Virus record (IMG/VR): IMGVR_UViG_3300009159_000211
Coordinates: 1 to 31,098 of that record
Strand: one strand, 5' to 3'
Length of the DNA: 31,098 nt
Origin: a virus
Shown here: piece by piece, positions 15,174 to 26,023 of the stretch
How positions within the stretch are numbered: position 1 is the first letter of the stretch
How the letters are laid out: every line of letters starts with the position of its first letter
The notes under the pieces: model-generated
What the model was told of the DNA's origin: nothing
What the model saw: the letters and a program-made list of their open reading frames with translations, nothing else
The model's database searches: none
Program-made: the position numbers and the translations under genes

Positions 15174-15247
15174 TGGGGGTTAGTGTAGCGGTAACACCAC
15201 AGACTTTGACTCTGTTATCACTGGTTCGAACCCAGTACCCTCTGCCA
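15174..15247 (+). tRNA. tRNA-Gln (TTG)
   Basis: The cloverleaf has anticodon loop CTTTGAC on stem ACAGA/TCTGT, T-arm ACTGG-TTCGAAC-CCAGT, and an encoded CCA. The acceptor end has a U1-U72 mismatch, which suits glutaminyl-tRNA synthetase, as it prefers a weak first pair. Confidence 0.93.
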
Positions 15248-15254
15248 AATTTAT

Positions 15255-15330
15255 ATCCTGCTAGTTTATCGGTTAAGAACAGTGGCCTTTCAAGTCGCAG
15301 AGACGGGTTCGATTCCCGTGCAGGATGCCA
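15255..15330 (+). tRNA. tRNA-Glu (TTC)
   Basis: The acceptor ATCCTGC/GCAGGAT is perfect. The anticodon loop is CTTTCAA and CCA is encoded. A second tRNA-Glu(TTC) of different sequence lies at 19573. The structured motif copy A starts 5 nt after its CCA. Confidence 0.93.
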
Positions 15331-15334
15331 GTTT

Positions 15335-15395
15335 AGGATAGCAACAGCAAACAAATCCAATTTCACTTTTAATGAAAAAAAGATGCTATCCTGTT
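15335..15395 (+). ncRNA. RGGAT-CAGCAA RNA motif, copy A
   Basis: AGGATAGCA (15335-15343) pairs with TGCTATCCT (15384-15392). CAGCAA follows AGGAT after exactly 5 nt. An inner hairpin TTTCA/TGAAA has loop CTTTTAA. The 3' end reads ATCCTGTT. It lies directly after tRNA-Glu. It shares the consensus RGGAT-N5-CAGCAA ... ATCCYGYT with four other copies in this window. Confidence 0.8.
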
Positions 15396-15401
15396 TTATA
15401 T

Positions 15402-15478
15402 GCGACCGTAACTCAGTTGGATAGAGTACTAGGCTACGAACTTAGGAGTCGGGAGTTCGAATCTCTCCGGTCGCACCA
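15402..15478 (+). tRNA. tRNA-Arg (ACG)
   Basis: Acceptor GCGACCG/CGGTCGC, anticodon loop CTACGAA, and encoded CCA. An A34 anticodon normally needs TadA deamination to inosine to read the CGN codons. Confidence 0.93.
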
Positions 15479-15482
15479 ATAT

Positions 15483-15557
15483 GCTGATGTAACACAGTGG
15501 TAGTGTACTTCCTTGGTAAGGAAGAGGTCGTGAGTTCAAATCTCGCCATCAGCACCA
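15483..15557 (+). tRNA. tRNA-Thr (GGT)
   Basis: Acceptor GCTGATG/CATCAGC, anticodon loop TTGGTAA on CTTCC/GGAAG, and encoded CCA. The ACCA end is also the start of the 18-bp inverted repeat to the next tRNA. Confidence 0.93.
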
Positions 15558-15625
15558 TTATAGAAACATACTCTAACTTTATTGTGACACGTGGGTTCAT
15601 CCATGTAGTATGTTTCTATAATGGT
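15554..15625 (+). ncRNA. 18-bp perfect hairpin joining two tRNAs
   Basis: 15554-15571 (starting with the ACCA of tRNA-Thr) is the exact reverse complement of 15608-15625 (ending in the GGT that begins tRNA-Met). The loop contains a smaller hairpin, ACGTGG/CCATGT with loop GTTCAT. The stem would cover both tRNA termini in the precursor. It may guide or delay processing. Confidence 0.75.
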
Positions 15626-15698
15626 TGAGTAGCATAGTGGCTAATGCAATACCTTCATACGGTATCTATCGTCGGTTCGAGTCCGACCTCAACTACCA
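15623..15698 (+). tRNA. tRNA-Met or tRNA-Ile2 (CAT)
   Basis: Acceptor GGTTGAG/CTCAACT, anticodon loop TTCATAC on ATACC/GGTAT, T-arm GTCGG-TTCGAGT-CCGAC, and encoded CCA. It lacks the initiator features, so it is either elongator Met or the lysidine-modified Ile form reading AUA. Sequence alone does not decide. Confidence 0.88.
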
Positions 15699-15706
15699 AA
15701 TAATTT

Positions 15707-15781
15707 GGCCAATTAGCTCAGTGGTAGAGCACCGTCTTGATAAGGCGGGGGTCGATGGATCGTTCCCATCATTGGCTACCA
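15707..15781 (+). tRNA. tRNA-Ile (GAT) with unusual T-loop
   Basis: Anticodon loop TTGATAA on CCGTC/GGCGG, with encoded CCA. The T-arm is GATGG-ATCGTTC-CCATC, so positions 54 and 58 are A and U instead of the near-universal U54 and A58. The same swap occurs in tRNA-His and tRNA-Asp here. Confidence 0.9.
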
Positions 15782-15783
15782 AA

Positions 15784-15924
15784 TTTCGGGATAGACGATA
15801 TGATTGAGTCCCTTGTAATCTAGCACATGGCGGCATGTGTGACACACCAGTAGATTATAAAGGTCGATAAACTCTTGTATACGAGACAAACTAATTCAAG
15901 TGTACACCGAATTAGTTCCCGAAA
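15784..15924 (+). ncRNA. Multi-branched structured RNA between tRNA-Ile and tRNA-Ala
   Basis: It is closed by TTTCGGGA (15784-15791) with TCCCGAAA (15917-15924). Inside are TTGTAATCTA/TAGATTATAA (15813/15851, one G-T pair) capped by CACATG-GCGG-CATGTG, and an 8-bp hairpin ACTAATTC/GAATTAGT (15890/15909). The architecture resembles the 14910-15115 RNA: an 8-bp closing stem around several hairpins. No known family was recognised. Confidence 0.68.
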
Positions 15925-15934
15925 ACTTATTCAT

Positions 15935-16009
15935 GGGCTGTTAGTGATAATGGGAGCACGGGGGCTTTGCACGTCCTAGGTAAGAGTTCGATTCTCTTAC
16001 GGTCCACCA
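15935..16009 (+). tRNA. tRNA-Ala (TGC), divergent copy
   Basis: Acceptor GGGCTGT/ACGGTCC, anticodon loop TTTGCAC on GGGGC/GTCCT with wobble pairs, T-arm AAGAG-TTCGATT-CTCTT, and encoded CCA. Acceptor and anticodon stems are weak. A more standard tRNA-Ala(TGC) lies at 23805. Confidence 0.82.
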
Positions 16010-16015
16010 AACAAT

Positions 16016-16107
16016 GGAAGATAATGCAGGTGGGATGGTCCGCCGACTAGCCTTGAAAACTAGGTTCTCTTAACAGGGATGGGGTTCGACTCCTCTGTCT
16101 TCCGCCA
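16016..16107 (+). tRNA. tRNA-Ser (TGA), divergent copy
   Basis: This type II tRNA of 92 nt has acceptor GGAAGAT/GTCTTCC and discriminator G. The anticodon loop is CTTGAAA on a stem with a C31-A39 mismatch, and CCA is encoded. A more regular tRNA-Ser(TGA) lies at 23885. Confidence 0.85.
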
Positions 16108-16122
16108 AACAAAGGAATCAAA

Positions 16123-16491
16123 ATGTTAAAACAATTTAATATCGATGAACAATATATATGTGATGTAACTGTTAGAACTGAATTTGATTTAGTAAAAGAT
16201 AGAAACAATCCTACATACGATGACCTCATCAAAGTCCTTAAGGGACGGGATAAGATGACTAGCACAAGCAACAAAGACCACGATGAGTTTACCGAACTAC
16301 GTGAAGAATTGGGTAGATTAGGTTACATCAAAATTGAACGTGGATGGTGGAACGGTGATAGAGTCACAAAATCATTTAAATTGAACGAATGGTCTTTTCG
16401 TAAAAATCATAAGTTTCCTTGCGCGGCAGCACTAAGCAATAGTATTCATTGTGCTAGGAAATTTGGATGGAAGAACATTTCATCGTATTAA
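16123..16491 (+). CDS. Hypothetical protein (122 aa)
   Basis: ATG follows AAAGGAATC, a plausible ribosome binding site. The protein is mixed-charge with no signal peptide or membrane segment. It contains a segment rich in Asp, Lys and Ser (KMTSTSNKDHDE) and a C-terminal aromatic/basic part (GWWNGDRVTKSFKLNEW). It could be winged-helix-like (ELREELGRLGYIKIERG), as in small transcription factors, but no motif is decisive. It lies between tRNA-Ser and tRNA-Pro on the same strand and is presumably expressed with the array. Confidence 0.75.
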   Translation: MLKQFNIDEQYICDVTVRTEFDLVKDRNNPTYDDLIKVLKGRDKMTSTSNKDHDEFTELREELGRLGYIKIERGWWNGDRVTKSFKLNEWSFRKNHKFPCAAALSNSIHCARKFGWKNISSY

Positions 16492-16498
16492 GAATTAT

Positions 16499-16576
16499 CT
16501 GGGTATATTGTCAACTTGGTAGACGGCCGGGCTTGGAACTCGGAGGCTGGAGGTTCAAATCCTCCTACCCAGACCA
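16499..16576 (+). tRNA. tRNA-Pro (TGG)
   Basis: Acceptor CTGGGTA/TACCCAG, anticodon loop CTTGGAA on CCGGG/CTCGG, and encoded CCA. The motif copy B begins 6 nt after it. A second tRNA-Pro(TGG) lies at 22326. Confidence 0.93.
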
Positions 16577-16581
16577 CTTTT

Positions 16582-16639
16582 AGGATGCGTTCAGCAACTT
16601 TAAAAATTCAACTTTTAATTGAAAAATAAGCATCCTGTT
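16582..16639 (+). ncRNA. RGGAT-CAGCAA RNA motif, copy B
   Basis: AGGATGC (16582-16588) pairs with GCATCCT (16630-16636). CAGCAA sits 5 nt after AGGAT. An inner hairpin TTCAA/TTGAA has loop CTTTTAA. It ends in ATCCTGTT. It follows tRNA-Pro directly. Confidence 0.82.
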
Positions 16640-16648
16640 CTTTTCTAT

Positions 16649-16724
16649 GGAGTCACTAGTGTAGAGGTTCGCACCCTAGTCTGTGAAACTGGTAGTACGG
16701 GATCGTTCCCCGTGTGACTCCCCA
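16649..16724 (+). tRNA. tRNA-His (GTG) with unusual T-loop
   Basis: The acceptor GAGTCAC/GTGACTC is preceded by an encoded G that can pair with discriminator C, the histidine identity pair G-1:C73. Anticodon loop CTGTGAA; CCA encoded. The T-arm ACGGG-ATCGTTC-CCCGT has A54 and U58. Confidence 0.9.
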
Positions 16725-16736
16725 AATATTTTAATA

Positions 16737-16916
16737 TCAGTCTATAAAATCAAGCCATGGTCTACAATGTGCTATTGACATAGCAAACCACATTAAAGCC
16801 ATTTCATATGATTGGGTACCGCACACAGGCAGATTGAAGTAAAACAGATTAACAAACCCCATAATCACAAACAATGGAGTGGGGAAGAGAATGATAAATC
16901 TTTTTATATTAGACAT
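16737..16916 (-). CDS. Small membrane protein (59 aa)
   Basis: ATG 16916 gives a 59-aa protein with two hydrophobic stretches (FIILFPTPLFVIMGFVNLFY and a second around YEMALMWFAMSI), so it probably spans the membrane twice. It lies on the minus strand inside the plus-strand tRNA array. An exact TATAAATA octamer ends 4 nt before the start, which supports this start over a longer one. No Shine-Dalgarno sequence is visible. Function is unknown; small late membrane proteins in phages often relate to lysis or the envelope. Confidence 0.6.
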   Translation of the reverse strand: MSNIKRFIILFPTPLFVIMGFVNLFYFNLPVCGTQSYEMALMWFAMSIAHCRPWLDFID

Positions 16917-16920
16917 TACA

Positions 16921-16928
16921 TATTTATA
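16921..16928 (-). promoter_or_regulatory. Late promoter octamer (TATAAATA, exact consensus)
   Basis: The minus strand reads TATAAATA 4 nt upstream of the small membrane protein ATG. It touches the first base of tRNA-Phe on the other strand. Confidence 0.65.
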
Positions 16929-17003
16929 CAACTTTAGCTGATGTGGTCATAGCAGTGGGCTGAAAACTCATGGAAACTGGTTCGATTCCAGTAGGTTGTA
17001 CCA
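16928..17003 (+). tRNA. tRNA-Phe (GAA)
   Basis: Acceptor ACAACTT/AGGTTGT, anticodon loop CTGAAAA on GTGGG/CTCAT, T-arm ACTGG-TTCGATT-CCAGT, and encoded CCA. Confidence 0.92.
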
Positions 17004-17010
17004 AACCAAT

Positions 17011-17097
17011 ACCCTTATAGACAAATTGGTAAAGTCACTCTCCTCAAAAGGGAGCATCTTAAAAGATATCTGAGTTCGAATCTCAGTGGGGGTACCA
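17011..17097 (+). tRNA. tRNA-Leu (CAA)
   Basis: A type II tRNA with acceptor ACCCTTA/TGGGGGT, anticodon loop CTCAAAA, long variable arm (GCATCTTAAAAGATAT), T-arm CTGAG-TTCGAAT-CTCAG, and encoded CCA. Confidence 0.92.
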
Positions 17098-17100
17098 GTG

Positions 17101-17129
17101 TTGACAGTAATTCAATTATCTGTTATAGT
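17101..17129 (+). promoter_or_regulatory. Sigma70-type promoter before tRNA-Arg(TCG)
   Basis: TTGACA, 17-bp spacer, TATAGT. The expected transcription start falls at or just before the tRNA 5' end at 17138. Confidence 0.75.
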
Positions 17130-17137
17130 ATATACAT

Positions 17138-17212
17138 GGGTCATTAACTCAGTGGAAGAGTTCTGGTCTTCGAAACCAGCAGTCAGAGGTTCGAATCCTC
17201 TATGACCCTCCA
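17138..17212 (+). tRNA. tRNA-Arg (TCG)
   Basis: Acceptor GGGTCAT/ATGACCC with discriminator T, anticodon loop CTTCGAA on CTGGT/ACCAG, and encoded CCA. Confidence 0.93.
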
Positions 17213-17258
17213 AACTAGTTAAATAGTTATAGTGACAATAGCAACAAAGGAGTAGAAA

Positions 17259-17819
17259 ATGGCTGTTCTAGCACTAGATATCTCAGGAGTTCCCCGACAG
17301 TGGATCTCATACGATGACGCAATTACCTACCATGCAAAGAATGCAATTGCATGGGCATTAGGGGAAGTTGTAGCTAAGTATCGTGGTGGTCTTCAAAACG
17401 ACGGTGAAATGAGTTACCTAGAAACTACTAGCATTATTGCTATTAAAGGTCATGGTTTCAATCCACACAAGCATGCCAATGTTGCACTAAGCAACCGTAC
17501 ACTATTCGGTCGTGACCGTTATGTGTGTGCATACTGCGGTGGGCATTTCCCCAATTATAACAATCTAAGTCGTGACCACATTCTGCCTAAGAGCCGAGGT
17601 GGTGAAAACACTTGGATGAACGTGGTTACTGCATGTAAGGACTGTAACGCAAAGAAGGGTCACAAACTGTTAAAAGAATGTGGTCTAGAATTGTTGTACA
17701 TCCCGTATGCACCAAATCACTATGAAAACATGATTCTACAACAACGCAACATACTTGCGGATCAAATGGATTACTTGCTTGCAGGTGTTCCAAAGCATAG
17801 TAGAATCTTATTGTCGTAA
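17259..17819 (+). CDS. HNH endonuclease
   Basis: The 186-aa protein has a C-terminal HNH nuclease domain. CAYC and CKDC form a zinc ribbon around LSRDHILPKSRGGENTW, in which the DH is the catalytic His site and the Asn follows at the expected spacing. The N-terminal ~85 residues contain no recognised DNA-binding motif. ATG follows AAAGGAG by 6 nt, a strong ribosome binding site. Free-standing HNH genes often lie beside phage tRNA arrays and can act as homing or nicking endonucleases. A GTTAAATA octamer at 17218 may give extra late transcription. Confidence 0.92.
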   Translation: MAVLALDISGVPRQWISYDDAITYHAKNAIAWALGEVVAKYRGGLQNDGEMSYLETTSIIAIKGHGFNPHKHANVALSNRTLFGRDRYVCAYCGGHFPNYNNLSRDHILPKSRGGENTWMNVVTACKDCNAKKGHKLLKECGLELLYIPYAPNHYENMILQQRNILADQMDYLLAGVPKHSRILLS

Positions 17820-17821
17820 AA

Positions 17822-17862
17822 ATATCACAGGGACTCTTGACAGAAAAGTTTCCCTGTGATAT
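17822..17862. repeat. 12-bp inverted repeat around a promoter
   Basis: ATATCACAGGGA (17822-17833) and TCCCTGTGATAT (17851-17862) are exact reverse complements. The -35 hexamer lies in the loop, and the right arm overlaps the first three bases of the -10. It could be an operator, or the hairpin could end HNH transcription; no U-run follows, so the operator reading is favoured. Confidence 0.7.
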
Positions 17863-17865
17863 AAT
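17837..17865 (+). promoter_or_regulatory. Consensus sigma70 promoter
   Basis: TTGACA, 17-bp spacer, TATAAT: an exact match to the consensus. It drives tRNA-Thr(TGT) and genes downstream, and is embedded in the inverted repeat 17822-17862. Confidence 0.88.
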
Positions 17866-17884
17866 TCATGTAAATAGAATGAAA

Positions 17885-17959
17885 GCCCGATTGGCTCAGA
17901 GGTAGAGCAACCGCCTTGTAAGCGGTAGGTCGTCTGTTCGATTCAGACATTGGGCACCA
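17885..17959 (+). tRNA. tRNA-Thr (TGT)
   Basis: Acceptor GCCCGAT/ATTGGGC, anticodon loop CTTGTAA on ACCGC/GCGGT, and encoded CCA. Confidence 0.93.
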
Positions 17960-17966
17960 AATTTAT

Positions 17967-18042
17967 TCCCCAGTAGCACAGCGGTAGTTGCAGTTGACTG
18001 TTAATCAACGTGTCGGTGGTTCGATCCCATCCTGGGGAGCCA
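17967..18042 (+). tRNA. tRNA-Asn (GTT)
   Basis: Acceptor TCCCCAG/CTGGGGA, anticodon loop CTGTTAA on GTTGA/TCAAC, discriminator G, and encoded CCA. Confidence 0.93.
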
Positions 18043-18061
18043 ATTTTTCAATGGAGAAAGT

Positions 18062-18256
18062 ATGTTAGTAAGTGAAAACGCAGGTTATAAATTGTATTGT
18101 GAAGTTCGTAAACTTGACATTCATCCACAGGACAATCATGTCCGAATTTATACAACATATGACTGGGCTAAGAATCCAGATGCAGAACAAAACAAACTAG
18201 AGTTGTTCCTTAATGATAAGGAACTAGAAACACTCAGACAATCACTAACAGCCTAA
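18062..18256 (+). CDS. Hypothetical protein (64 aa)
   Basis: ATG follows GGAGAAAGT, a plausible ribosome binding site. The product is a small soluble acidic protein (VRIYTTYDWAKNPD, then LELFLNDKELETLRQSL) that looks like a beta-strand pair and a C-terminal helix. It lies between tRNA-Asn and tRNA-Arg. No family was recognised. Confidence 0.75.
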   Translation: MLVSENAGYKLYCEVRKLDIHPQDNHVRIYTTYDWAKNPDAEQNKLELFLNDKELETLRQSLTA

Positions 18257-18261
18257 TATAT

Positions 18262-18336
18262 CTGGCGTTCGTTCAACGGATAGGACATCTTTCTTCTAAA
18301 GAGATAATAGTGGTTCGATTCCACTACGCCGGACCA
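18262..18336 (+). tRNA. tRNA-Arg (TCT)
   Basis: Acceptor CTGGCGT/ACGCCGG, anticodon loop CTTCTAA on TCTTT/AGAGA, and encoded CCA. Its end is 1 nt from the stop codon of the convergent J-domain gene. Confidence 0.92.
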
Positions 18337-18337
18337 A

Positions 18338-18916
18338 TTACTTAATAAATAATTGCCAATCTTCCGTACTGTAATGATAGTTTTCTAGTATATCTAGCAT
18401 TTTGATAAAAACTATCATTGTTCTTTTGTGACCGGCAAGTTCAGTTTGTGTATGTGTAATTTTTCTTTCTACAATTGCTTGTAGAAAGTTTTCACCTTCT
18501 GTTTTTAATTTGATTTTTTTACTAATGATGGTTAATTTCCGTACAGTGTTTTCACATTCGTTGATAGCAGTTGTGGCATTGCGTTGAGCATCATATATAT
18601 CAACTTTCATCTTTAGTATTAAATCATCAAGTTCTGGGTTTATTTGTTGGGTATGGTGAGATACCATGTTAGCAAGCCTACCAAAAACTTCGTTATCAAC
18701 ACCGGCTTCTTCATAATGTTCGCCGGTTGAATCATAGTGTGAACGTTTTACCGGATCACTTAGTATTTCGTATGCTAATTTGATTCGTTTGAATTTATCT
18801 TCGGATCCTCCCTTATCAGGGTGGTGTGTTTGTGCTAGTGTCCTGTATTTTTGCTTGATTTCATCAGGGGTGCAAGTTCTTGGCAATTCAAGTTCTTCGT
18901 ATAAGGTAGTATCCAT
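18338..18916 (-). CDS. J-domain (DnaJ-like) protein
   Basis: This 192-aa protein begins with a J-domain. YRTLAQTHHPDKGGSEDKF contains the invariant HPD motif (near residue 33) that stimulates Hsp70 ATPase activity, followed by FKRIKLAYEILSDP. The rest is helical and charged, with no Gly/Phe-rich or zinc-finger region, so it is a type III J-protein that recruits host DnaK to a specific client. It lies on the minus strand within the tRNA array. A GATAAATA octamer 4 nt before the start suggests late expression. Confidence 0.9.
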   Translation of the reverse strand: MDTTLYEELELPRTCTPDEIKQKYRTLAQTHHPDKGGSEDKFKRIKLAYEILSDPVKRSHYDSTGEHYEEAGVDNEVFGRLANMVSHHTQQINPELDDLILKMKVDIYDAQRNATTAINECENTVRKLTIISKKIKLKTEGENFLQAIVERKITHTQTELAGHKRTMIVFIKMLDILENYHYSTEDWQLFIK

Positions 18917-18920
18917 AACA

Positions 18921-18928
18921 TATTTATC
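18921..18928 (-). promoter_or_regulatory. Late-type promoter octamer (GATAAATA)
   Basis: The minus strand reads GATAAATA, one base from the T4 late consensus, 4 nt upstream of the J-domain gene start. Confidence 0.6.
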
Positions 18929-18954
18929 GTGTTGTATTTTTGCAACAACATCGG

Positions 18955-18983
18955 TTTACAATAAATCGATTTGGTGCTATACT
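18955..18983 (+). promoter_or_regulatory. Sigma70-type promoter, copy 1 of tandem pair
   Basis: TTTACA, 17-bp spacer, TATACT. The region to about 19004 is an imperfect direct repeat of the promoter and leader start at 19061-19109; both share TAATGAGTTGAGA. Confidence 0.72.
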
Positions 18984-19060
18984 ATGTCTAATGAGTTGAG
19001 AGATTGATTCATAGGTGAGTTGAAGAAATGATAGCGTTGTAAAAATACAACACAAACAAT

Positions 19061-19089
19061 TTGACAATAAAGCCGATTAGATGTATAAT
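19061..19089 (+). promoter_or_regulatory. Consensus sigma70 promoter, copy 2 of tandem pair
   Basis: TTGACA, 17-bp spacer, TATAAT: an exact consensus. It is followed by a ~200-nt leader with a boxA-like element and hairpins before the next genes. Confidence 0.88.
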
Positions 19090-19301
19090 ACATTTAATGA
19101 GTTGAGAAATCAACAGGTTGTTTCAAAAAGCGAGACACGCTAGCAATAGCAAAAAGTCAAGCAGGAAACATTAAATGAGCCGGTCTCAGCCAACTGTTCT
19201 TTAAAAAGTTAATTGTCATATAGTCCCTGTTAAGTTCAGGGTACTATATGAAAACGCATTAGGTTACTAAGCCAGTAGGTAACTTAGGAGAGACTATATC
19301 A
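19090..19301 (+). ncRNA. Leader RNA with boxA-like element and hairpin
   Basis: No sizeable gene lies between 18917 and 19301. From the promoters the transcript runs through a boxA-like sequence (19195-19207). Next comes a 12-bp hairpin with one bulged base (ATATAGTCCCTG with CAGGGTACTATAT, 19217-19250) and a smaller one around GTTAC/GTAAC (19264-19288). The layout of tandem promoters, leader, boxA and stem resembles an rRNA operon leader. Confidence 0.6.
19195..19207 (+). promoter_or_regulatory. boxA-like antitermination site
   Basis: TGTTCTTTAAAAA closely resembles proteobacterial rRNA boxA (TGCTCTTTAACA in E. coli; forms with TGTTCTTTAAAAA in beta-proteobacteria). boxA binds NusB/S10 and helps polymerase read through untranslated structured RNA, which would fit a tRNA operon. 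Confidence 0.6.
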
Positions 19302-19523
19302 GTGGCCGCACTGACTCTCGCTAAGTTTACACGAAACCTTGAGATAATATCAGGAGGACGCTGGAACAACTTAGCCTGTAATGTGGTTAGAATCTTATCG
19401 GTAGACGGTACCGTGAGAAACCAGATGAAGTTCTGGAACGGTTCTAAACATCCTAATGCATTTTCATATAGTAAATTTGTGCAGGTTGGACAATCTTCCG
19501 GAGATTGTTATTTGGGTCTGTAG
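19302..19523 (+). CDS. Possible small protein (73 aa)
   Basis: A GTG-started frame of 73 codons follows AGGAGA by about 12 nt. The product (GGRWNNLACNVVRILSVDG, then KHPNAFSYSKF) has a coding-like composition but no recognised family. It ends about 50 nt before tRNA-Glu. Because it lies in a leader-like region rich in stems, it could instead be part of the untranslated RNA. Confidence 0.45.
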   Translation: MAALTLAKFTRNLEIISGGRWNNLACNVVRILSVDGTVRNQMKFWNGSKHPNAFSYSKFVQVGQSSGDCYLGL

Positions 19524-19572
19524 ATAGAAATTTCGATACCTATCGTGACTAAGATACGCACAATGTTTTTAT

Positions 19573-19647
19573 GCACGATTCGTCTATCGGTTAGGACACA
19601 TGCCTTTCACGTATGTAAGAGGGGTTCGATTCCCCTATCGTGTACCA
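19573..19647 (+). tRNA. tRNA-Glu (TTC), second copy
   Basis: Acceptor GCACGAT/ATCGTGT, anticodon loop CTTTCAC on CATGC/GTATG, and encoded CCA. It differs strongly from the copy at 15255, so it is not a recent duplication. Confidence 0.9.
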
Positions 19648-19654
19648 AGTTTTT

Positions 19655-19727
19655 AAGGGCATATCGCCTGAGCACTTCTCCCAGCAATGGGACACTAGGC
19701 TCTGCAACCTTGTCCTTACTCTTTTTT
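19655..19727 (+). ncRNA. Rod-like small RNA between tRNA-Glu and tRNA-Asp
   Basis: The 7-bp end stem AAGGGCA/TGTCCTT (19655/19711) encloses GCCT/AGGC (19666/19697) and a 5-bp hairpin TCCCA-GCAA-TGGGA with a GNRA loop. A CTTTTTT run follows, so it may act as a processed small RNA or a terminator-like element. No family was recognised. Confidence 0.55.
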
Positions 19728-19802
19728 GGTCTCAAAGTGTTCATGGACGCATACATGCCTGTCACGCATGAGGAGCGGGATCGTTACCCGCTGGGACCGC
19801 CA
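19728..19802 (+). tRNA. tRNA-Asp (GTC) with unusual T-loop
   Basis: Acceptor GGTCTCA/TGGGACC, anticodon loop CTGTCAC on CATGC/GCATG, discriminator G, and encoded CCA. The T-arm GCGGG-ATCGTTA-CCCGC has A54 and U58. Confidence 0.9.
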
Positions 19803-19808
19803 ACATTA

Positions 19809-19900
19809 GGAAGGTTGGATGAGTGGCTTAAATCAGCAGTTTGCTAAACTGCGGGGTGCCGTAAGGTGCCCCGAGGGTTCGAATCCCTCACCTTCCACCA
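19809..19900 (+). tRNA. tRNA-Ser (GCT)
   Basis: A type II tRNA with acceptor GGAAGGT/ACCTTCC, anticodon loop TTGCTAA on GCAGT/ACTGC, a long variable arm around GGGTGCCGTAAGGTGCCC, and encoded CCA. Confidence 0.93.
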
Positions 19901-19911
19901 GAGCATTTGAT

Positions 19912-19989
19912 GCCTAGATGGCAGAGTGGTCCAATGCAACGGATTGCAAATCCGTAAAACCGTCAGTTCAAATCTGACTCTAGGTTCCA
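19912..19989 (+). tRNA. tRNA-Cys (GCA)
   Basis: Acceptor GCCTAGA/TCTAGGT, discriminator T as expected for Cys, anticodon loop TTGCAAA on ACGGA/TCCGT, and encoded CCA. Confidence 0.92.
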
Positions 19990-20008
19990 AATTTTAAAGG
20001 AGAATATT

Positions 20009-20137
20009 GTGGCACATAAGCAACAAGGTATTCTAACACGTAGTCCTCAATGGTGGAAACACCTTAGAGATTGGAAGCGAGTGTTCTGGAAATCAGAACG
20101 ACAAGCACAAAAGAGAAATGTTAATAAAGGAGAATGA
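20009..20137 (+). CDS. Small basic protein (42 aa), unknown
   Basis: GTG follows AAAGGAG by 6 nt, a strong ribosome binding site. The 42-aa product is rich in Lys, Arg and Trp (RSPQWWKHLRDWKRVFW), suggesting nucleic acid or membrane contact. Its last codons contain another AAAGGAG, which would serve the next ATG at 20139; that frame hits TAG after six codons. Confidence 0.55.
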   Translation: MAHKQQGILTRSPQWWKHLRDWKRVFWKSERQAQKRNVNKGE

Positions 20138-20219
20138 CATGAAACGAGGTAAACTCTAGTGTCACTCTAAACTTCCGTATGGTTTAGGGTTGGCACGTAA
20201 AATCAATTAATACGTACAA

Positions 20220-20294
20220 CCCTTCGAGGTGTTATGGTAGCATACTCGGCTCTTACCCGATGAGGCGTCAGTTCGACTCTGACTGAAGGGACCA
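20220..20294 (+). tRNA. tRNA-Lys (CTT)
   Basis: Acceptor CCCTTCG/TGAAGGG, anticodon loop CTCTTAC with the outer anticodon-stem pair mismatched, T-arm GTCAG-TTCGACT-CTGAC, and encoded CCA. Confidence 0.88.
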
Positions 20295-20297
20295 TAT

Positions 20298-20371
20298 GGA
20301 GGTATAACTTAACGGTAAAGTAGTAGGCTTTTAACCTATTAATCAGAGTTCGATTCTCTGTGCCTCTACCA
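20298..20371 (+). tRNA. tRNA-Lys (TTT)
   Basis: Acceptor GGAGGTA/TGCCTCT, anticodon loop CTTTTAA on GTAGG/CCTAT, and encoded CCA. Its ACCA end is the first part of the long hairpin 20368-20468. Confidence 0.9.
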
Positions 20372-20468
20372 TATAAAAACACATTACTTGCCCGACCGTA
20401 AAAGTCGTGGTAAACTACAAGAGAAGTGGGTTCGAATCCCGGGGACTGGTAGTGTGTTCCTATATGGT
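20368..20468 (+). ncRNA. Long hairpin with T-arm-like domain after tRNA-Lys
   Basis: ACCATATA (20368-20375) pairs with TATATGGT (20461-20468). After a 2-nt mismatch, AACACATTAC pairs with GTAGTGTGTT (20378/20449, one G-T pair). The interior holds a 4-bp hairpin CGAC/GTCG with a 7-nt loop and a T-arm-like TGGG-TTCGAAT-CCCG. The first bases are the ACCA of tRNA-Lys, as in the hairpin at 15554-15625. A decayed or specialised tRNA-like element is possible. Confidence 0.6.
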
Positions 20469-20479
20469 AGAAAAATTTT

Positions 20480-20566
20480 GGAGATGTAGGAAAATTGGTA
20501 ACCCCAGTGGACTGTAAATCCGCCGCCCGAAAGGCACTACTGGTTCGACTCCAGTCGTCTCCACCA
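20480..20566 (+). tRNA. tRNA-Tyr (GTA)
   Basis: A type II tRNA with acceptor GGAGATG/CGTCTCC, anticodon loop CTGTAAA on GTGGA/TCCGC, variable arm GCCCGAAAGGC, and encoded CCA. Confidence 0.93.
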
Positions 20567-20573
20567 ATAATAT

Positions 20574-20661
20574 GCAACATAGGATGTAACGGGGTGTGGT
20601 TGCCTCAACCTTGAATGCTCAGGGTTTTCTTGCGTGGGTTCGAATCCCGCATGTTGCGCCA
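20574..20661 (+). tRNA. tRNA-like gene without a normal anticodon loop
   Basis: A perfect acceptor GCAACAT/ATGTTGC, discriminator G, encoded CCA and T-arm GTGGG-TTCGAAT-CCCGC are present. A D-like hairpin is GTAAC/GTTGC. Where the anticodon arm should be, AACCTTGA and TCAGGGTT form 8 bp around a 4-nt loop ATGC, so no 7-nt loop with U33 can be drawn. It may be a tRNA mimic or a decayed tRNA. The identity cannot be assigned. Confidence 0.6.
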
Positions 20662-20664
20662 AGT

Positions 20665-20884
20665 TTTGTAAGTGTTAGCAAGTGAAGTCACGCTATTCAG
20701 TATTCTTCGAAGGTACTGTATAGTAGAAGGTTGCGGGTTCGATGCCCGACTGGTCGCTTGAGTGGGACCGGTATACATGACGGCGTATCAGCTGGATGAA
20801 TCCCAAGTAACGTACCGAGTCCTAGCCCGGGCTTTATGCAAATAGGTGAATGGTGTCAATAACGATGGTGACACAACTTACAAA
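20665..20884 (+). ncRNA. 220-nt RNA with embedded tRNA-Arg-like module
   Basis: It is closed by TTTGTAAGT (20665-20673) with ACTTACAAA (20876-20884). Inside, CAAGTGA/TCGCTTG (20679/20754) makes an acceptor-like stem around an anticodon-like arm. In that arm, GTATT/GGTAC carries loop CTTCGAA, which reads TCG. A T-arm-like CGGG-TTCGATG-CCCG follows. No D-arm and no CCA are present. A further 6-bp hairpin GTGTCA/TGACAC lies near the 3' end. It could be a tRNA-mimicking RNA or a tRNA pseudogene within a structured transcript. Confidence 0.6.
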
Positions 20885-20892
20885 TTCAATAT

Positions 20893-20966
20893 GTCTCGGT
20901 AGTGTAACGGCAGCATGTCGGTCTCCAAAACCGTTGGTGGGGGTTCAAATCCCTCCCGGGACGCCA
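20893..20966 (+). tRNA. tRNA-Trp (CCA)
   Basis: Acceptor GTCTCGG/CCGGGAC, discriminator G, anticodon loop CTCCAAA, T-arm GGGGG-TTCAAAT-CCCTC, and encoded CCA. Confidence 0.92.
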
Positions 20967-20967
20967 A

Positions 20968-21174
20968 TCATTTAAAAGTATTGAATTCAGGACCGGCAAG
21001 AATAAATGGTTTTTCTTGAGGTATAAACATTGGATCAGCTACAAAAAATTTCTTTGCTAATAATTCATCTAGTACGAATTCAGCAGGTAAGCAATGACTA
21101 CTGACATCTTTATAAGGTTCAGTACCAGCTATGGTAAATAGCATTAAAAAATCATTTTTACTATCTGAGTGCAT
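20968..21174 (-). CDS. Hypothetical protein (68 aa)
   Basis: The 68-aa product (FTIAGTEPYKDVSSHC, then FILAGPEFNTF) has coding-like composition, a repeated AG-x-E turn and no recognised family. It is on the minus strand, with its stop 2 nt from tRNA-Trp. An exact TATAAATA octamer ends 5 nt before its ATG, matching the other minus-strand genes of the array. This spacing supports it as a real late gene without a Shine-Dalgarno sequence. Confidence 0.62.
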   Translation of the reverse strand: MHSDSKNDFLMLFTIAGTEPYKDVSSHCLPAEFVLDELLAKKFFVADPMFIPQEKPFILAGPEFNTFK

Positions 21175-21179
21175 GATAG

Positions 21180-21187
21180 TATTTATA
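21180..21187 (-). promoter_or_regulatory. Late promoter octamer (TATAAATA, exact consensus)
   Basis: The minus strand reads TATAAATA 5 nt upstream of the ATG at 21174, just outside the tRNA that starts at 21189 on the other strand. Confidence 0.65.
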
Positions 21188-21188
21188 T

Positions 21189-21280
21189 ACCCCTGTAGTT
21201 TAATGGTAAAACGGCGGATTTATATCCCGTAAGCAACAGATAATTGGTTCATGGGAGTTCGAATCTCCCCGGGGGTACCA
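21189..21280 (+). tRNA. Type II tRNA with TAT anticodon (Ile or Leu-like)
   Basis: Acceptor ACCCCTG/CGGGGGT, D-stem GTTT/AAAC, anticodon loop TTTATAT on GCGGA/CCCGT with an A31-C39 mismatch, a 20-nt variable region, and encoded CCA. The anticodon would read AUA (Ile), yet a long variable arm and discriminator A are leucine or tyrosine features. The amino acid is therefore uncertain. Confidence 0.75.
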
Positions 21281-21286
21281 GAATAT

Positions 21287-21315
21287 TTGACAAGTATCAA
21301 CAGATGCTATATAAT
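21287..21315 (+). promoter_or_regulatory. Consensus sigma70 promoter
   Basis: TTGACA, 17-bp spacer, TATAAT: exact consensus, 11 bp upstream of tRNA-Met at 21327. Confidence 0.88.
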
Positions 21316-21326
21316 AGAAATATGTT

Positions 21327-21402
21327 GCGCTTGTAGCTTAACGGTTAAAGCAGTGGACTCATAATCCATTGAGTGGGGGTTCGATTCCCTCCGAGCGCAC
21401 CA
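21327..21402 (+). tRNA. tRNA-Met or tRNA-Ile2 (CAT)
   Basis: Acceptor GCGCTTG/CGAGCGC, anticodon loop CTCATAA on GTGGA/TCCAT, T-loop TTCGATT, and encoded CCA. It could be elongator Met or a lysidine-type Ile reading AUA. Confidence 0.9.
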
Positions 21403-21410
21403 AAAGTTTT

Positions 21411-21484
21411 GCGGGGTTCGTATAGTGGTAATACCTTAGCCTTCCAAGCTAATGCTGAGAGTTCGATTCTCTTACCCCGCTCCA
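21411..21484 (+). tRNA. tRNA-Gly (TCC)
   Basis: Acceptor GCGGGGT/ACCCCGC, discriminator T, anticodon loop CTTCCAA on TTAGC/GCTAA, and encoded CCA. Confidence 0.94.
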
Positions 21485-21492
21485 GAGTTTTT

Positions 21493-21577
21493 GCGAGTAT
21501 GACGGAATAGGTAGACGTAGCAGACTTAAAATCTGCCGCTTTCGGGCGTCCCGGTTCGACTCCGGGTACTCGCACCA
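21493..21577 (+). tRNA. tRNA-Leu (TAA)
   Basis: Type II, with acceptor GCGAGTA/TACTCGC, anticodon loop CTTAAAA on GCAGA/TCTGC, variable arm near GCTTTCGGGC, and encoded CCA. Confidence 0.94.
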
Positions 21578-21586
21578 AGAATGTTT

Positions 21587-21670
21587 GCCCCGGTGGTGTA
21601 ATGGTAGCCACGCTGGTCTTAGAAGCCAGTGCCGAAAGGCGTGTCGGTTCGAGTCCGACCTGGGGCACCA
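21587..21670 (+). tRNA. tRNA-Leu (TAG)
   Basis: Type II, with acceptor GCCCCGG/CTGGGGC, anticodon loop CTTAGAA on CTGGT/GCCAG, variable arm GCCGAAAGGC, and encoded CCA. Confidence 0.94.
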
Positions 21671-21684
21671 ATCTTTTCTTTAGT

Positions 21685-21692
21685 GATAAATA
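21685..21692 (+). promoter_or_regulatory. Late-type promoter octamer (GATAAATA)
   Basis: GATAAATA lies 7 nt before the ATG at 21700, between tRNA-Leu and a small gene. Confidence 0.58.
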
Positions 21693-21699
21693 CATTACT

Positions 21700-21903
21700 A
21701 TGAGCATGAAAGTAAAAGTCTTTATTAACGACACCCTATACAAAACAATGACTCTCCCTACCGAGAGTTATAATCCAGCTTTTGTCTGGCCACAGATACA
21801 GGCTGACAAAGAAGCAGGACTACTTACACAGTTTGGAATTACTCCTAACTTTGGTCCCGAAGATGGCAAGTTTGCTGTCCGCATAGAAAAAGTACCTAAA
21901 TAA
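21700..21903 (+). CDS. Hypothetical phage protein (67 aa)
   Basis: ATG 21700 follows a late-type octamer with no room for a Shine-Dalgarno sequence; an in-frame frame from 21601 would run through the tRNA-Leu gene and is rejected. The product (MKVKVFINDTLYKTMTLP, then DGKFAVRIEKV) looks like a small beta-rich protein with no signal peptide. The family was not recognised. tRNA-Val begins 3 nt after its stop. Confidence 0.75.
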   Translation: MSMKVKVFINDTLYKTMTLPTESYNPAFVWPQIQADKEAGLLTQFGITPNFGPEDGKFAVRIEKVPK

Positions 21904-21905
21904 TC

Positions 21906-21980
21906 GCTTGATTAGTTCAGAGGTAGAACGCTACCTCGACACGGTAGAGGTCAAAAGTTCAAATCTTTTATCAAGCACCA
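21906..21980 (+). tRNA. tRNA-Val (GAC)
   Basis: Acceptor GCTTGAT/ATCAAGC, anticodon loop TCGACAC on CTACC/GGTAG, and encoded CCA. Confidence 0.93.
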
Positions 21981-22001
21981 ACAAACAACAAATAAATATA
22001 T

Positions 22002-22077
22002 AGCGGTGTATGGAAGTGGTCATCCGCTTGGTCTCATAAGCCAAGAATCGCTGGTTCGAATCCAGCCTCCGCAACCA
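22002..22077 (+). tRNA. Initiator-like tRNA-fMet (CAT)
   Basis: The first acceptor pair is an A-A mismatch; an unpaired 1-72 position is an initiator hallmark, as the E. coli initiator has C-A. The 3' end CCGCAACCA matches that of E. coli initiator tRNA, and the anticodon loop is CTCATAA. The anticodon stem TTGGT/GCCAA has fewer G-C pairs than the three of the E. coli initiator. An AATAAATA octamer lies 3 nt upstream (21991). Confidence 0.8.
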
Positions 22078-22086
22078 ATCATTTAA

Positions 22087-22335
22087 ATGCTAGAATATAT
22101 TATAACCTTTTTTGCTGTATTTTTTACGGATATCTTTTATACTTACTATTTGAAAGCTATACAAGATGACCAAGTAATGAAAGCCAGCATGTGGGCAACA
22201 GTTGTATTCGTGACTGCTTGCATAGCAGTTATCAATTATACTACTAACTATTGGTTACTTATTCCAGCAGGACTAGGTGCATTTTGTGGCACTTATGTTG
22301 GGATGATTTTACGTAAGAGGAATATCGGAGTGTAG
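22087..22335 (+). CDS. Small integral membrane protein (82 aa)
   Basis: This 82-aa protein has three hydrophobic segments: residues ~3-22 (YIITFFAVFFTDIFYTYYL), ~32-50 and ~55-74. It ends with a basic cytoplasmic tail (LRKRNIGV). It looks like a small phage membrane protein of unknown role. It has no Shine-Dalgarno sequence. The last 10 bases, including the TAG stop, are also the first bases of tRNA-Pro, so processing of that tRNA would cut the mRNA's end. Confidence 0.8.
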   Translation: MLEYIITFFAVFFTDIFYTYYLKAIQDDQVMKASMWATVVFVTACIAVINYTTNYWLLIPAGLGAFCGTYVGMILRKRNIGV

Positions 22336-22402
22336 CGCAGTCTGGTAGCGCACCTGGTTTGGGACCAGGGGGTCCAAGGTTCGAATCCTTGTACTCCGAC
22401 CA
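22326..22402 (+). tRNA. tRNA-Pro (TGG), second copy
   Basis: Acceptor CGGAGTG/TACTCCG, anticodon loop TTTGGGA on CCTGG/CCAGG, and encoded CCA. Its 5' end overlaps the stop of the membrane protein gene by 10 bp. Confidence 0.94.
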
Positions 22403-22422
22403 AGAATATTAAAAGGAAACAC

Positions 22423-22692
22423 ATGCAAGTTAAAGCAAGACACATTTTAGTTCAAACATTGAACGAGGCAGTAGAAGTACATAATAAACTTCAAGAAGGA
22501 CAAGACTTTTCGCAATTAGCGGCAAAGGTCAGCAAGTGTCCAAGTGGTCGCAATGGTGGAGACTTAGGCTTCTTCCAACGTGGTCAAATGGTTCAGGCAT
22601 TTGAAGATGCTACTTACAACTTAGATGTTGGTGGAACTAGTAGTCCTATTCAAACTCAATTTGGATATCATATCATTCAGAGGACTGGATAA
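22423..22692 (+). CDS. Parvulin-type peptidyl-prolyl isomerase
   Basis: This 89-aa protein is a single PpiC-like domain. It starts with VKARHILVQT and contains CPSGRNGGDLGFFQRGQMV followed by FGYHIIQ, the characteristic parvulin strands and His residues. The length matches the stand-alone parvulin of E. coli (~93 aa), with no signal peptide, so it acts in the cytoplasm. It may help fold a phage protein. ATG follows AAAAGGAAACAC, a usable ribosome binding site. It is in a cluster with small basic and methyltransferase genes between tRNAs. Confidence 0.92.
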   Translation: MQVKARHILVQTLNEAVEVHNKLQEGQDFSQLAAKVSKCPSGRNGGDLGFFQRGQMVQAFEDATYNLDVGGTSSPIQTQFGYHIIQRTG

Positions 22693-22695
22693 TAT

Positions 22696-22836
22696 ATGGC
22701 AAAAGATACCGGTAGAAATACAAAAGGGCATGTTGTTAGTAAACGTACATGTCAAGGTGGTAATAGAGCAAAAACTAGTTCTATGAATAAAACACGTGCT
22801 AACACTTTTAAGAAGTACAGAGGTCAAGGTAGATAA
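22696..22836 (+). CDS. Small basic phage protein (46 aa)
   Basis: ATG 22696 lies 3 nt after the parvulin stop, so the two are probably coupled. The 46-aa product is rich in Lys, Arg, Gly and Thr (VVSKRTCQGGNRAKTSSMN, then NTFKKYRGQGR). Similar short basic proteins ending in KKYRGQGR occur in T4-like phages of aquatic bacteria. Binding to nucleic acid or ribosomes is inferred from charge only. Confidence 0.75.
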   Translation: MAKDTGRNTKGHVVSKRTCQGGNRAKTSSMNKTRANTFKKYRGQGR

Positions 22837-22845
22837 AAGAATAAT

Positions 22846-22921
22846 GCATCCTTAACTCAGATGGTAGAGTGTCGCCTTTACACGGCGAATGTCGGCGGTT
22901 CGAGCCCGTCAGGATGTACCA
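22846..22921 (+). tRNA. tRNA-Val (TAC)
   Basis: Acceptor GCATCCT/AGGATGT, anticodon loop TTTACAC on TCGCC/GGCGA, T-loop TTCGAGC, and encoded CCA. Confidence 0.92.
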
Positions 22922-22929
22922 GAGATAAT

Positions 22930-23003
22930 GCGGGTATGATGTAAAGGTAACCTGAAACCTTGCCAAGGTTTATTTGCGAGTTCGATTCTCGCTACCCGCT
23001 CCA
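22930..23003 (+). tRNA. tRNA-Gly (GCC)
   Basis: Acceptor GCGGGTA/TACCCGC, discriminator T, anticodon loop TTGCCAA on AAACC/GGTTT, and encoded CCA. Confidence 0.93.
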
Positions 23004-23006
23004 AAC

Positions 23007-23014
23007 ATTAAATA
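23007..23014 (+). promoter_or_regulatory. Late-type promoter octamer (ATTAAATA)
   Basis: ATTAAATA lies 5 nt before the ATG at 23020 and just after tRNA-Gly. Confidence 0.5.
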
Positions 23015-23019
23015 AAATT

Positions 23020-23556
23020 ATGGCTCATCAACAACAATTTAATTATATAACTAGTCTCAAGTTACAGTTCCCTACAAGTTTTTTTAATTGTAAAATGCTT
23101 GAAGTTGGAAGTTTAAACATCAATGGCTCAATAAGAGATTATTTTACTCATTGTGATTACTTGGGAATTGACGTAGGAGAAGGACCGGGTGTTGATTTAG
23201 TATGTGAGGGTCAAAATCTTGACCATCCAGACAATACGTATGACACTGTAGGCTCATGTGAATGTTTTGAACACAATCCATATTGGATCGAAACATTTCA
23301 AAATATGTTCAGAATGGCAAAACCGGGCGCACTTGTTTTTATGAGTTGTGCTACTACCGGTAGACCAGAACATGGAACAACAAGAACATCTCCTAAAGAT
23401 AGTCCATTGACTATCGGTAAAGGTTGGGATTATTATAAAAATTTAACTGAACAAGATTTTCGTGATAATTTTGACTGTGATGCAATGTTTAGTAAATATG
23501 AATTCCAGGTAGGATCACCTCATCCGGATTTGTATTTTTATGGCTTTAAAAAATAA
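23020..23556 (+). CDS. Class I SAM-dependent methyltransferase-like protein
   Basis: From ATG 23020 the protein has 178 aa; a longer frame would start within tRNA-Gly and is rejected. KMLEVGSLNINGSIRDYF is motif I, YLGIDVGEGPGVDLV gives the acidic SAM-binding strand, and YDTVGSCECFEH with AKPGALVFMSC are motifs II-III. This pattern is close to small-molecule methyltransferases of the Methyltransf_11 type. The substrate is unknown. It differs from the cluster methyltransferase at 11245. rpoZ follows 8 nt later. Confidence 0.82.
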   Translation: MAHQQQFNYITSLKLQFPTSFFNCKMLEVGSLNINGSIRDYFTHCDYLGIDVGEGPGVDLVCEGQNLDHPDNTYDTVGSCECFEHNPYWIETFQNMFRMAKPGALVFMSCATTGRPEHGTTRTSPKDSPLTIGKGWDYYKNLTEQDFRDNFDCDAMFSKYEFQVGSPHPDLYFYGFKK

Positions 23557-23564
23557 GGAAAAAT

Positions 23565-23798
23565 ATGCCACGTATAAGTAGTGAAAAAGCAGTTCAGGCT
23601 GTAGGTAATCGTTATGACTTGGTTCTTATTGCAAGTCAACGTGTCCGAGAATTAAAAAGTGGCCATCGTGCTAAAGTTAGTATCACTGCAGGACCAAGTG
23701 TAACTGCATTGACCGAAATTGAAGAAGGTCTTATCGGTCGTGAGTATCTTAAGCGAGTTAAAGAAGATACTAAAAATCGAGAAAAAAGATTTAAATGA
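23565..23798 (+). CDS. rpoZ: RNA polymerase omega subunit-like protein
   Basis: This 77-aa protein matches the bacterial omega subunit along its length. It begins with RISSEKAVQAVGNRYDLVLIASQRVREL, which corresponds to helices 1-2 with the NRF/YxLV signature, and continues with VTALTEIEEGLIGREYLKRV, the conserved ALREI-x-G helix. Its ending is charged and short, as in beta-proteobacterial omega. Omega binds the beta' subunit and assists assembly and ppGpp response. A phage copy could replace host omega to alter promoter use. ATG follows AAGGAAAAAT. It sits 6 nt upstream of tRNA-Ala. Confidence 0.9.
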   Translation: MPRISSEKAVQAVGNRYDLVLIASQRVRELKSGHRAKVSITAGPSVTALTEIEEGLIGREYLKRVKEDTKNREKRFK

Positions 23799-23804
23799 AT
23801 AATT

Positions 23805-23880
23805 GGGGGTGTAGCTCATTTGGGAGAGCGCCTGCTTTGCAAGCAGGATGTAGCAAGTTCGATCCTTGTCACCTCCACCA
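23805..23880 (+). tRNA. tRNA-Ala (TGC), standard copy
   Basis: Acceptor GGGGGTG/CACCTCC, anticodon loop TTTGCAA on CCTGC/GCAGG, and encoded CCA. It looks like ordinary bacterial tRNA-Ala, unlike the copy at 15935. Confidence 0.95.
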
Positions 23881-23884
23881 ATAA

Positions 23885-23974
23885 GGAAGTGTGTCCGAGT
23901 GGTTTAAGGAACTGGTCTTGAAAACCAGCGAATGCTAACGTGTTCCGTGAGTTCGAATCTCACCACTTCCACCA
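23885..23974 (+). tRNA. tRNA-Ser (TGA), standard copy
   Basis: Type II, with acceptor GGAAGTG/CACTTCC, anticodon loop CTTGAAA on CTGGT/ACCAG, a variable arm, and encoded CCA. It is the last tRNA of the array. Confidence 0.94.
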
Positions 23975-23994: not shown

Positions 23995-24023
23995 TTGACG
24001 GTAAACACAAAATCATATATAAT
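23995..24023 (+). promoter_or_regulatory. Sigma70-type promoter of non-coding RNAs C and D
   Basis: TTGACG, 17-bp spacer, TATAAT. The expected start (about 24030) is ~18 nt upstream of motif copy C. Confidence 0.82.
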
Positions 24024-24047
24024 ACACGTATTGAATGATTAAATTTT

Positions 24048-24214: not shown

Positions 24215-24226
24215 TTCATTCATTAT

Positions 24227-24595: not shown

Positions 24596-26023
24596 ATGTC
24601 AACATTTGTAGAAGCAGTAGCTAACCAAGAAGCCCGTACCACAAATGGTATGAAGGCACTTAAGTCAACCGCAAATGCTTGCGTTGATTTGTTCTTTAAT
24701 ATCGGCGCAAGCCGTGGTAAGAACATCATACCCGCATTCACTGCGGCTTATGTAGAAAATTCTGACCTAGCATTACGTATTGTCCAATGGGCACGTGATG
24801 CACGTGGTGGATCCGGCGAACGTGAATTGTTCCGTCAAGTACTAGTTCACTTGGAATTAACTAACCCAGAAGATGCTAGCCGTCTATTGGTTAAGATTCC
24901 TGAATTAGGTCGCTACGATGACTTGTTAGTGTTTAAGACCAAGCCTCTAAAGGCACAAGCATACTCTATGATAGGTGATGCATTACGTAACCGTAATGGA
25001 TTGGCTGCAAAGTGGACTCCACGTAAGGGTGATGTTGCACGTGAAATACGTGAATTCTTTGGCATGACTCCAAAGCAATATCGTAAGAGCCTTGTTGCAC
25101 TAACCAATGTTGTTGAAACACAAATGTGTGCTAACGATTGGGACAACATCAACTACAACCATGTTCCTTCAGTGGCACATGCACGTTACAAGAAGGCATT
25201 CGGTCGTCATGGTACAACTTATGCTGAATACGTAACTAAGTTGGTTAAGGGCGAAGATGGTGCCAAGATAAACGCTGGTGCAGTGTTCCCCTACGATGTA
25301 CTGAAGGGTGCTATCAACAAGTACGGTCGTAGTGCAATGACTAAGACTGAATTGGACGCAATGCAAGCCCAATGGGATGCACTGCCAAACTTTATCGGTG
25401 ATGCTAACGTGTTGCCAATGGTTGATAGTTCAGGTTCTATGACTTGTCTTGCTGGTGGTCGTGGTAGTAAGAGTACTTTGTCTTGTTTGGACGTTGCAAT
25501 CTCATTGGGATTGTATTTTGCAGACAAGAATACTGGTAAGTTCAAGGATACATTCTTGACCTTCAGCCGCACTCCAAAGCTGGTTACTCTAAAGGGTAAC
25601 ATCAATCAAAAGATTGACCAAATGAACACTGGTGAAGTCGCTAACACCGACTTGAACAAGGCATTTGATTTGGTACTTAAGACTGCGGTAGATAACAGTG
25701 TTCCTCAAGCAGAAATGCCAGGTACAATCGTTATCTTCAGTGACATGCAATTTGATGCAGGTGTTCATCACGATGACTCTGCAATCGAAATGATAGCACG
25801 TAAGTACGAGGCAGCAGGTTACGAACTACCTAAGGTAGTATTCTGGAACTTGAATGCCGCATACGGTAACAGTCCAGTTAAGTTTAACAAGGCAGGTGTT
25901 GCGCTAGTCTCAGGATTTAGCCCAGCAGTTGCACAAAGTATTCTGTCTGGTAATATGGATGACTTCTCACCGGAAGCAATCATGTTGAAGACCGTTATGA
26001 AGGATCGCTACGACCTAGCTTAA
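24596..26023 (+). CDS. DUF2828/TROVE-like RNA-binding protein with vWA domain
   Basis: This 475-aa protein has an N-terminal helical-repeat half with FFNIGASRGKN, IVQWARDARGGSGERELFR and IPELGRYDDLLV, the pattern of DUF2828, which is related to the TROVE module of Ro60. The C-terminal half is a von Willebrand A domain with a MIDAS sequence (VDSSGSM near residue 280) and IFSDMQFD later. Ro60 proteins bind Y RNAs and defective RNAs. ATG follows AAGGAG by 7 nt. The gene uses GGT, CGT and AAG codons heavily, unlike the AT-rich enzyme cluster, suggesting strong expression. Motif copy E precedes it, and a terminator follows. Confidence 0.85.
   Translation: MSTFVEAVANQEARTTNGMKALKSTANACVDLFFNIGASRGKNIIPAFTAAYVENSDLALRIVQWARDARGGSGERELFRQVLVHLELTNPEDASRLLVKIPELGRYDDLLVFKTKPLKAQAYSMIGDALRNRNGLAAKWTPRKGDVAREIREFFGMTPKQYRKSLVALTNVVETQMCANDWDNINYNHVPSVAHARYKKAFGRHGTTYAEYVTKLVKGEDGAKINAGAVFPYDVLKGAINKYGRSAMTKTELDAMQAQWDALPNFIGDANVLPMVDSSGSMTCLAGGRGSKSTLSCLDVAISLGLYFADKNTGKFKDTFLTFSRTPKLVTLKGNINQKIDQMNTGEVANTDLNKAFDLVLKTAVDNSVPQAEMPGTIVIFSDMQFDAGVHHDDSAIEMIARKYEAAGYELPKVVFWNLNAAYGNSPVKFNKAGVALVSGFSPAVAQSILSGNMDDFSPEAIMLKTVMKDRYDLA

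Follow-up and report, generated by a model that had tools for sequence, protein, structure and literature searches.

The window, a whole IMG/VR record of 31,098 bases, is a fragment of a probable jumbo phage genome that is tied to larger contigs by synteny, and it carries an array of 35 tRNA genes on the plus strand (15174..23974). Enclosed in this array is an open reading frame (ORF) of the same strand (23565..23798, +), with an ATG start, a TGA stop, and an AAGGA Shine-Dalgarno-like stretch immediately 5' of it, which encodes a 77-aa protein resembling RpoZ, the omega subunit of RNA polymerase. The stop of a gene for a SAM-dependent methyltransferase (22960..23556, +; phrog_32762, E = 5e-73) is separated from the omega start by a gap of 8 nt; 7 nt beyond the omega stop begins tRNA-Ala(TGC) (23805..23880, +), near the end of the array, whose final gene is tRNA-Ser(TGA) (23885..23974, +). 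Located 3' of the array is a gene for a DUF2828/DUF7788 (vWA) RNA-binding protein (24596..26023, +; phrog_850, E = 1e-141), and after it come genes for a dual-specificity phosphatase-like protein and a metallophosphatase. At most of the related loci examined, omega likewise sits in or beside a large tRNA array, with a methyltransferase cluster nearby at 31 of 98 loci and the DUF2828/DUF7788 gene at 26 of 98, and most of the genes neighboring omega in the window have counterparts in like surroundings in both a 45-kb relative and a 367-kb contig that encodes the T4-type capsid protein Gp23.

Between the array and the vWA gene, which is Ro60-like, about 600 noncoding bases (23995-24595) hold two strong sigma70-like promoters. 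Y-RNA-like genes might be expected in this interval; Rfam searches and folding gave no clear support for them. A structured noncoding RNA next to the array was rejected as a candidate, as nothing except tRNA exceeded the Rfam cut-off beside the array and the fold z-scores were -0.09 and -1.48. Within the tRNA arrays of two omega-carrying relatives, ARAGORN predicted tmRNA genes (L035:6614-6941 and L065:5467-5872), with the predicted tags ANDELYALAA and ANDEVYALAA.

The identification of the ORF product as omega, first made from the letters alone in a preliminary description, was borne out by profile search: the protein scored 42.8 bits against Pfam RNA_pol_Rpb6 (PF01192; curated cut-off, 26) and 34.5 bits against the NCBIfam rpoZ model TIGR00690 (curated cut-off, 23.6). 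Omega chains from the PDB matched it with a best E value of 2e-11 over residues 1 to 68, and others over residues 1 to 73. The match had been described as running from end to end, which holds for most of the 77 residues but not for the C terminus, since the curated models stop at about residue 57 and the last 15 or so residues are not conserved. An AlphaFold2 model (mean pLDDT, 83.6) has the omega fold, and its top structure matches in the PDB are the omega chains of the E. coli and Vibrio polymerases (TM score of about 0.7). Profile, fold, phylogeny, and phage context therefore agree in supporting the conclusion that this gene, which is under purifying selection (see below), encodes an omega subunit belonging to a phage.

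To describe omega as rare in phages, as had been done initially, is correct for cultured phages and not for uncultured ones. We found 95 relatives in IMG/VR by single-sequence scan and at least 397 by alignment scan, some of them on contigs of 315 to 367 kb with a T4-type Gp23 capsid gene, a gp55-like late sigma factor, and large tRNA arrays. PF01192 was found in all 32 of a diverse set of family members, and a profile built from these 32 scored gammaproteobacterial omegas highest (73.6 bits) and Firmicutes-type omegas far lower, the bacterial group names here being those of the PDB entries listed. Among 50,697 records of cultured phages there was no clear omega, only matches of 38 to 49% identity; one GenBank phage match that was inspected proved to be bacterial chromosome (gmk-rpoZ-spoT), and the others were short, unannotated, or bacterial-looking. 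At least part of the record CAKLQH020000003.1 (L166), named "Acinetobacter phage MD-2021a," is made up of bacterial chromosome, carrying pil genes, ispH, gmk, rpoZ, and spoT. A first profile scan of the genome contigs with the phage omega alignment returned zero matches. A PHROG search with the 32 members matched no family, text searches of the literature, where the Greek letter omega is unsearchable, turned up no account of an omega encoded by a phage, and the words omega and rpoZ were absent from two major huge-phage surveys. Omega is already known as a universal polymerase subunit; what is apparently new is a phage-specific clade of it, a large family under selection that appears to be undescribed in the literature and phage family libraries searched.

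To find out what kind of phage carries omega, the larger related records were searched for capsid and transcription genes; as these records may be incomplete, single absences are weak, while the overall pattern is consistent. Gp23 was present in 9 of 18 records and a gp55-like late sigma factor in 8 of 15, whereas domain 1 of beta' (PF04997) was found in none of the 18, a result that is valid for cellular-type beta' and that stands against 14 positives in 14 control genomes. Within this scope, the 18 records give no sign of a phiKZ-type multisubunit polymerase, and the relatives instead show the combination expected of group-2 (T4-superfamily) jumbo phages, namely, Gp23 and a phage sigma factor and no polymerase. 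The Gp23 of the 367-kb record is 64 to 68% identical to the capsid proteins of Vibrio phage 2.275.O, PA5oct/Paride, and 121Q, which fall with the group-2 jumbo phages, described as having Gp23 capsids and their own sigma factors and lacking an RNA polymerase (PMC7824862). Because beta' was not found in the 18 records and a gp55-like sigma factor was present in 8 of 15, the omega-carrying phages very probably rely on the host polymerase. The gp55-like sigma match in the 367-kb contig (G003:50712-51101, the record of L011) holds an in-frame TAG, which could reflect a sequence error, a frame break, or recoding. Two candidate partners of omega were considered and rejected: phage-encoded ppGpp metabolism, as a RelA/SpoT synthetase was found in none of 15 related records and an HD_4 hydrolase domain in only 1 of 15, and RpbA (phrog_1285), which was not found in the 15 records by a search run without a positive control. 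The single HD_4 domain, of the alarmone hydrolase type, lies at G016:17801-18091 (the record of L069).

The preliminary description had recommended placing the protein in an omega phylogeny. We built a maximum-likelihood tree from few alignment columns, with 43 omegas from phages and 53 from bacteria, the bacteria being Pseudomonadota only. In it, all phage proteins fell on one side of a single branch with support of 100/99.9, forming one clade apart from the Pseudomonadota omegas. The nearest bacterial omegas found share at most about 51% identity with phage omega, and they differ also in setting, bacterial rpoZ lying in gmk-rpoZ-spoT and phage omega in a tRNA array. The median dN/dS of the phage omegas is 0.13 (479 pairs), and that of the window omega against its nearest relatives is 0.07 to 0.28; the phage omegas are under purifying selection, and omega is an old, maintained phage gene.

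The in vivo role of omega and of ppGpp site 1 has long been debated, and because omega helps to build this site, the phage family offers naturally occurring variants with which the function of both could be probed. We compared 98 phage and 140 bacterial omegas, the latter all from Pseudomonadota, in a joint alignment (E. coli numbering for A2, R3, K45, and R52). Phage omega has the core of bacterial RpoZ of the gammaproteobacterial type: the fold and the motifs NR(Y/F)DLVL..R.R and A..EIE.G are common to both, with N15 and R16 in 92 of 98 phage proteins, R26 and R28 in all 98, and A48/E51 in 96; many phage members also have the MxR N terminus, and the best profile matches are the Vibrio and E. 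coli omegas. Beyond this core, the two sets part. A2, R3, and K45 are invariant in the bacterial proteins and R52 is present in 139 of 140, while phage omegas have R3 in 73 of 98, K45 in 6, and R52 in 12, so that the trio R3, K45, and R52 is complete in 139/140 bacterial and 0/98 phage omegas. Conversely, A9/I22/E29 is found in every phage omega and R59/Y61/L62 (phage numbering) in 93 of 98, both against 0 of 140 in bacteria, and the phage proteins are further set apart by a GREYL motif. The phage C-terminal tail is short (median of 7 residues past L62) and basic (+4), whereas the bacterial tail is long and acidic (-4), and 59 of the 98 phage proteins have an N-terminal extension.

The window omega retains R3 and has P, G, and T in place of A2, K45, and R52, respectively; it thus lacks both the MAR N terminus and the K45 and R52 of a proteobacterial ppGpp site 1, although the contact made by K45 and R52 is itself putative. 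The best-documented omega contact segment comprises residues 2 to 5 (PMC7676912), within which R3 lies. With regard to the initial suggestion that the phage may uncouple polymerase from ppGpp, then, the loss of K45 and R52 and of the complete trio is in its favor, whereas R3 is kept in the window and in most of the family, and the effect would be confined to site 1. The losses of K45 and R52 would also be ordinary if the host group has no site 1, as the comparison covers Pseudomonadota only.

Strong sigma70-type and T4-like late promoters had been cited at the outset as further signs of polymerase modification. Three strong sigma70-like sites do exist in the window (12/12 at 26232, 11/12 at 23995, and 11/12 at 24474), but the total count of sigma70-like sites, 11, is what chance would give (10.7). 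The T4-type late promoter TATAAATA occurs 4 times in the window, with 5.3 expected by chance; given this lack of enrichment, the claim of T4-like late promoters did not hold, and they were discarded as support for polymerase modification.

Judging from the conserved core residues and the fold, subunit exchange is the most likely function of phage omega, and we think it fairly probable that the protein enters the host enzyme and serves there as an alternative omega whose ppGpp site-1 face is altered. During infection, a T4-superfamily jumbo myophage lacking an RNA polymerase of its own would produce a dedicated omega, and since the core of an omega homologue is intact, this protein would be expected to bind host beta', replacing host omega or competing with it. 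The resulting polymerase would retain the structural benefit of omega while showing a different surface, made up of the altered site-1 face, the phage-specific GREYL motif, and the short basic tail. Such an exchange would most likely serve to maintain an assembled host enzyme that goes on transcribing phage genes, among them those of the adjacent tRNA array, in a setting where host omega is limiting or transmits a regulatory signal. A weaker response through site 1 is our leading guess as to the specific effect. Site 2, which would remain with DksA in a polymerase carrying phage omega, has been described as more critical than site 1 (PMC7700224), and any decoupling from ppGpp would therefore be only partial. 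That this uncultured clade swaps in an omega blind at site 1 and so detaches the polymerase from part of starvation signaling is a tentative reading that we consider rather doubtful. The cultured cousin Paride requires host relA/spoT and rpoS on dormant cells (PMC10761892), which is suggestive of an interaction between this jumbo lineage and starvation physiology; Paride itself has no detectable omega.

Phage omega might instead be a plain replacement that leaves regulation as it is and only helps, late in infection, to assemble and stabilize the host enzyme, its residue differences reflecting drift or matching to the host. The retained structural core, the known role of omega as a beta' chaperone (PMC7700224), and the R3 kept in 73 of 98 proteins are all consistent with this, but the phage-only residues (A9/I22/E29 and R59/Y61/L62) point beyond a generic scaffold, and we regard it as possible but unlikely. 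In a second alternative, suggested by analogy, a phage transcription factor would dock on GREYL and the basic tail and bring host polymerase to phage promoters. GafA binds host omega directly in directing transcription of RcGTA (PMC9638019), and the patch is conserved in phage omegas only; however, across the 98 loci no conserved transcription factor gene was found beside omega, whose neighbors are methyltransferase, phosphatase, vWA RNA-binding protein, and tRNA genes, and such a platform seems improbable. It is more improbable still that the protein has its role somewhere other than in RNA polymerase, for instance on tRNAs or ribosomes, as its recurring association with tRNA arrays and its basic tail could be taken to indicate, given that the omega fold and the residues common with bacterial omega are kept across the family. 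Finally, bacterial contamination or recent capture of a host gene, of which at least one GenBank "phage" match (gmk-rpoZ-spoT context) is an instance, has a negligible probability for the window omega and is ruled out by context and tree, as the gene is located in a phage tRNA array that shows synteny with contigs encoding Gp23 and belongs to a single phage clade, for which the highest identity to any bacterial omega found is about 51%.

Known phage strategies either supplement the host polymerase with sigma factors, inhibitors, or modifiers or bring in a complete enzyme. If an alternative omega does enter the host enzyme, core-subunit exchange would be a distinct strategy of phage take-over. 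The small proteins with which T4 binds host polymerase (gp55, RpbA, and AsiA), of which a gp55-like sigma factor is also found in the omega relatives, add or inhibit factors, whereas an omega homologue would take the place of one of the core subunits. Jumbo phages of the phiKZ type, which form group 1 of Iyer et al., likewise encode relatives of cellular polymerase subunits; they differ in that their beta and beta' are split and a sigma factor is lacking, whereas the omega phages have a gp55-like sigma and no beta' that we could find, which is the life style of group 2 (PMC7824862). The gene transfer agent RcGTA is another phage-like element that works through omega, with the difference that its activator binds host omega and the omega phages bring their own (PMC9638019). 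As a counterpoint, PA5oct/Paride and 121Q-PBECO4 (group 2.2), cultured phages of the same jumbo lineage with the same transcription style and the capsid identity given above, manage without a detectable omega, unlike their uncultured relatives.

Elsewhere in the window, a block at 1-14331 resembles several radical-SAM-type proteins, as judged by eye from their motifs, and also contains genes that look like those of glycosyltransferases and methyltransferases; the 45-kb relative (L173) has a comparable block. A D-alanyl-D-alanine carboxypeptidase-like gene (Peptidase_S11) at 28316-29140 is kept in relatives.
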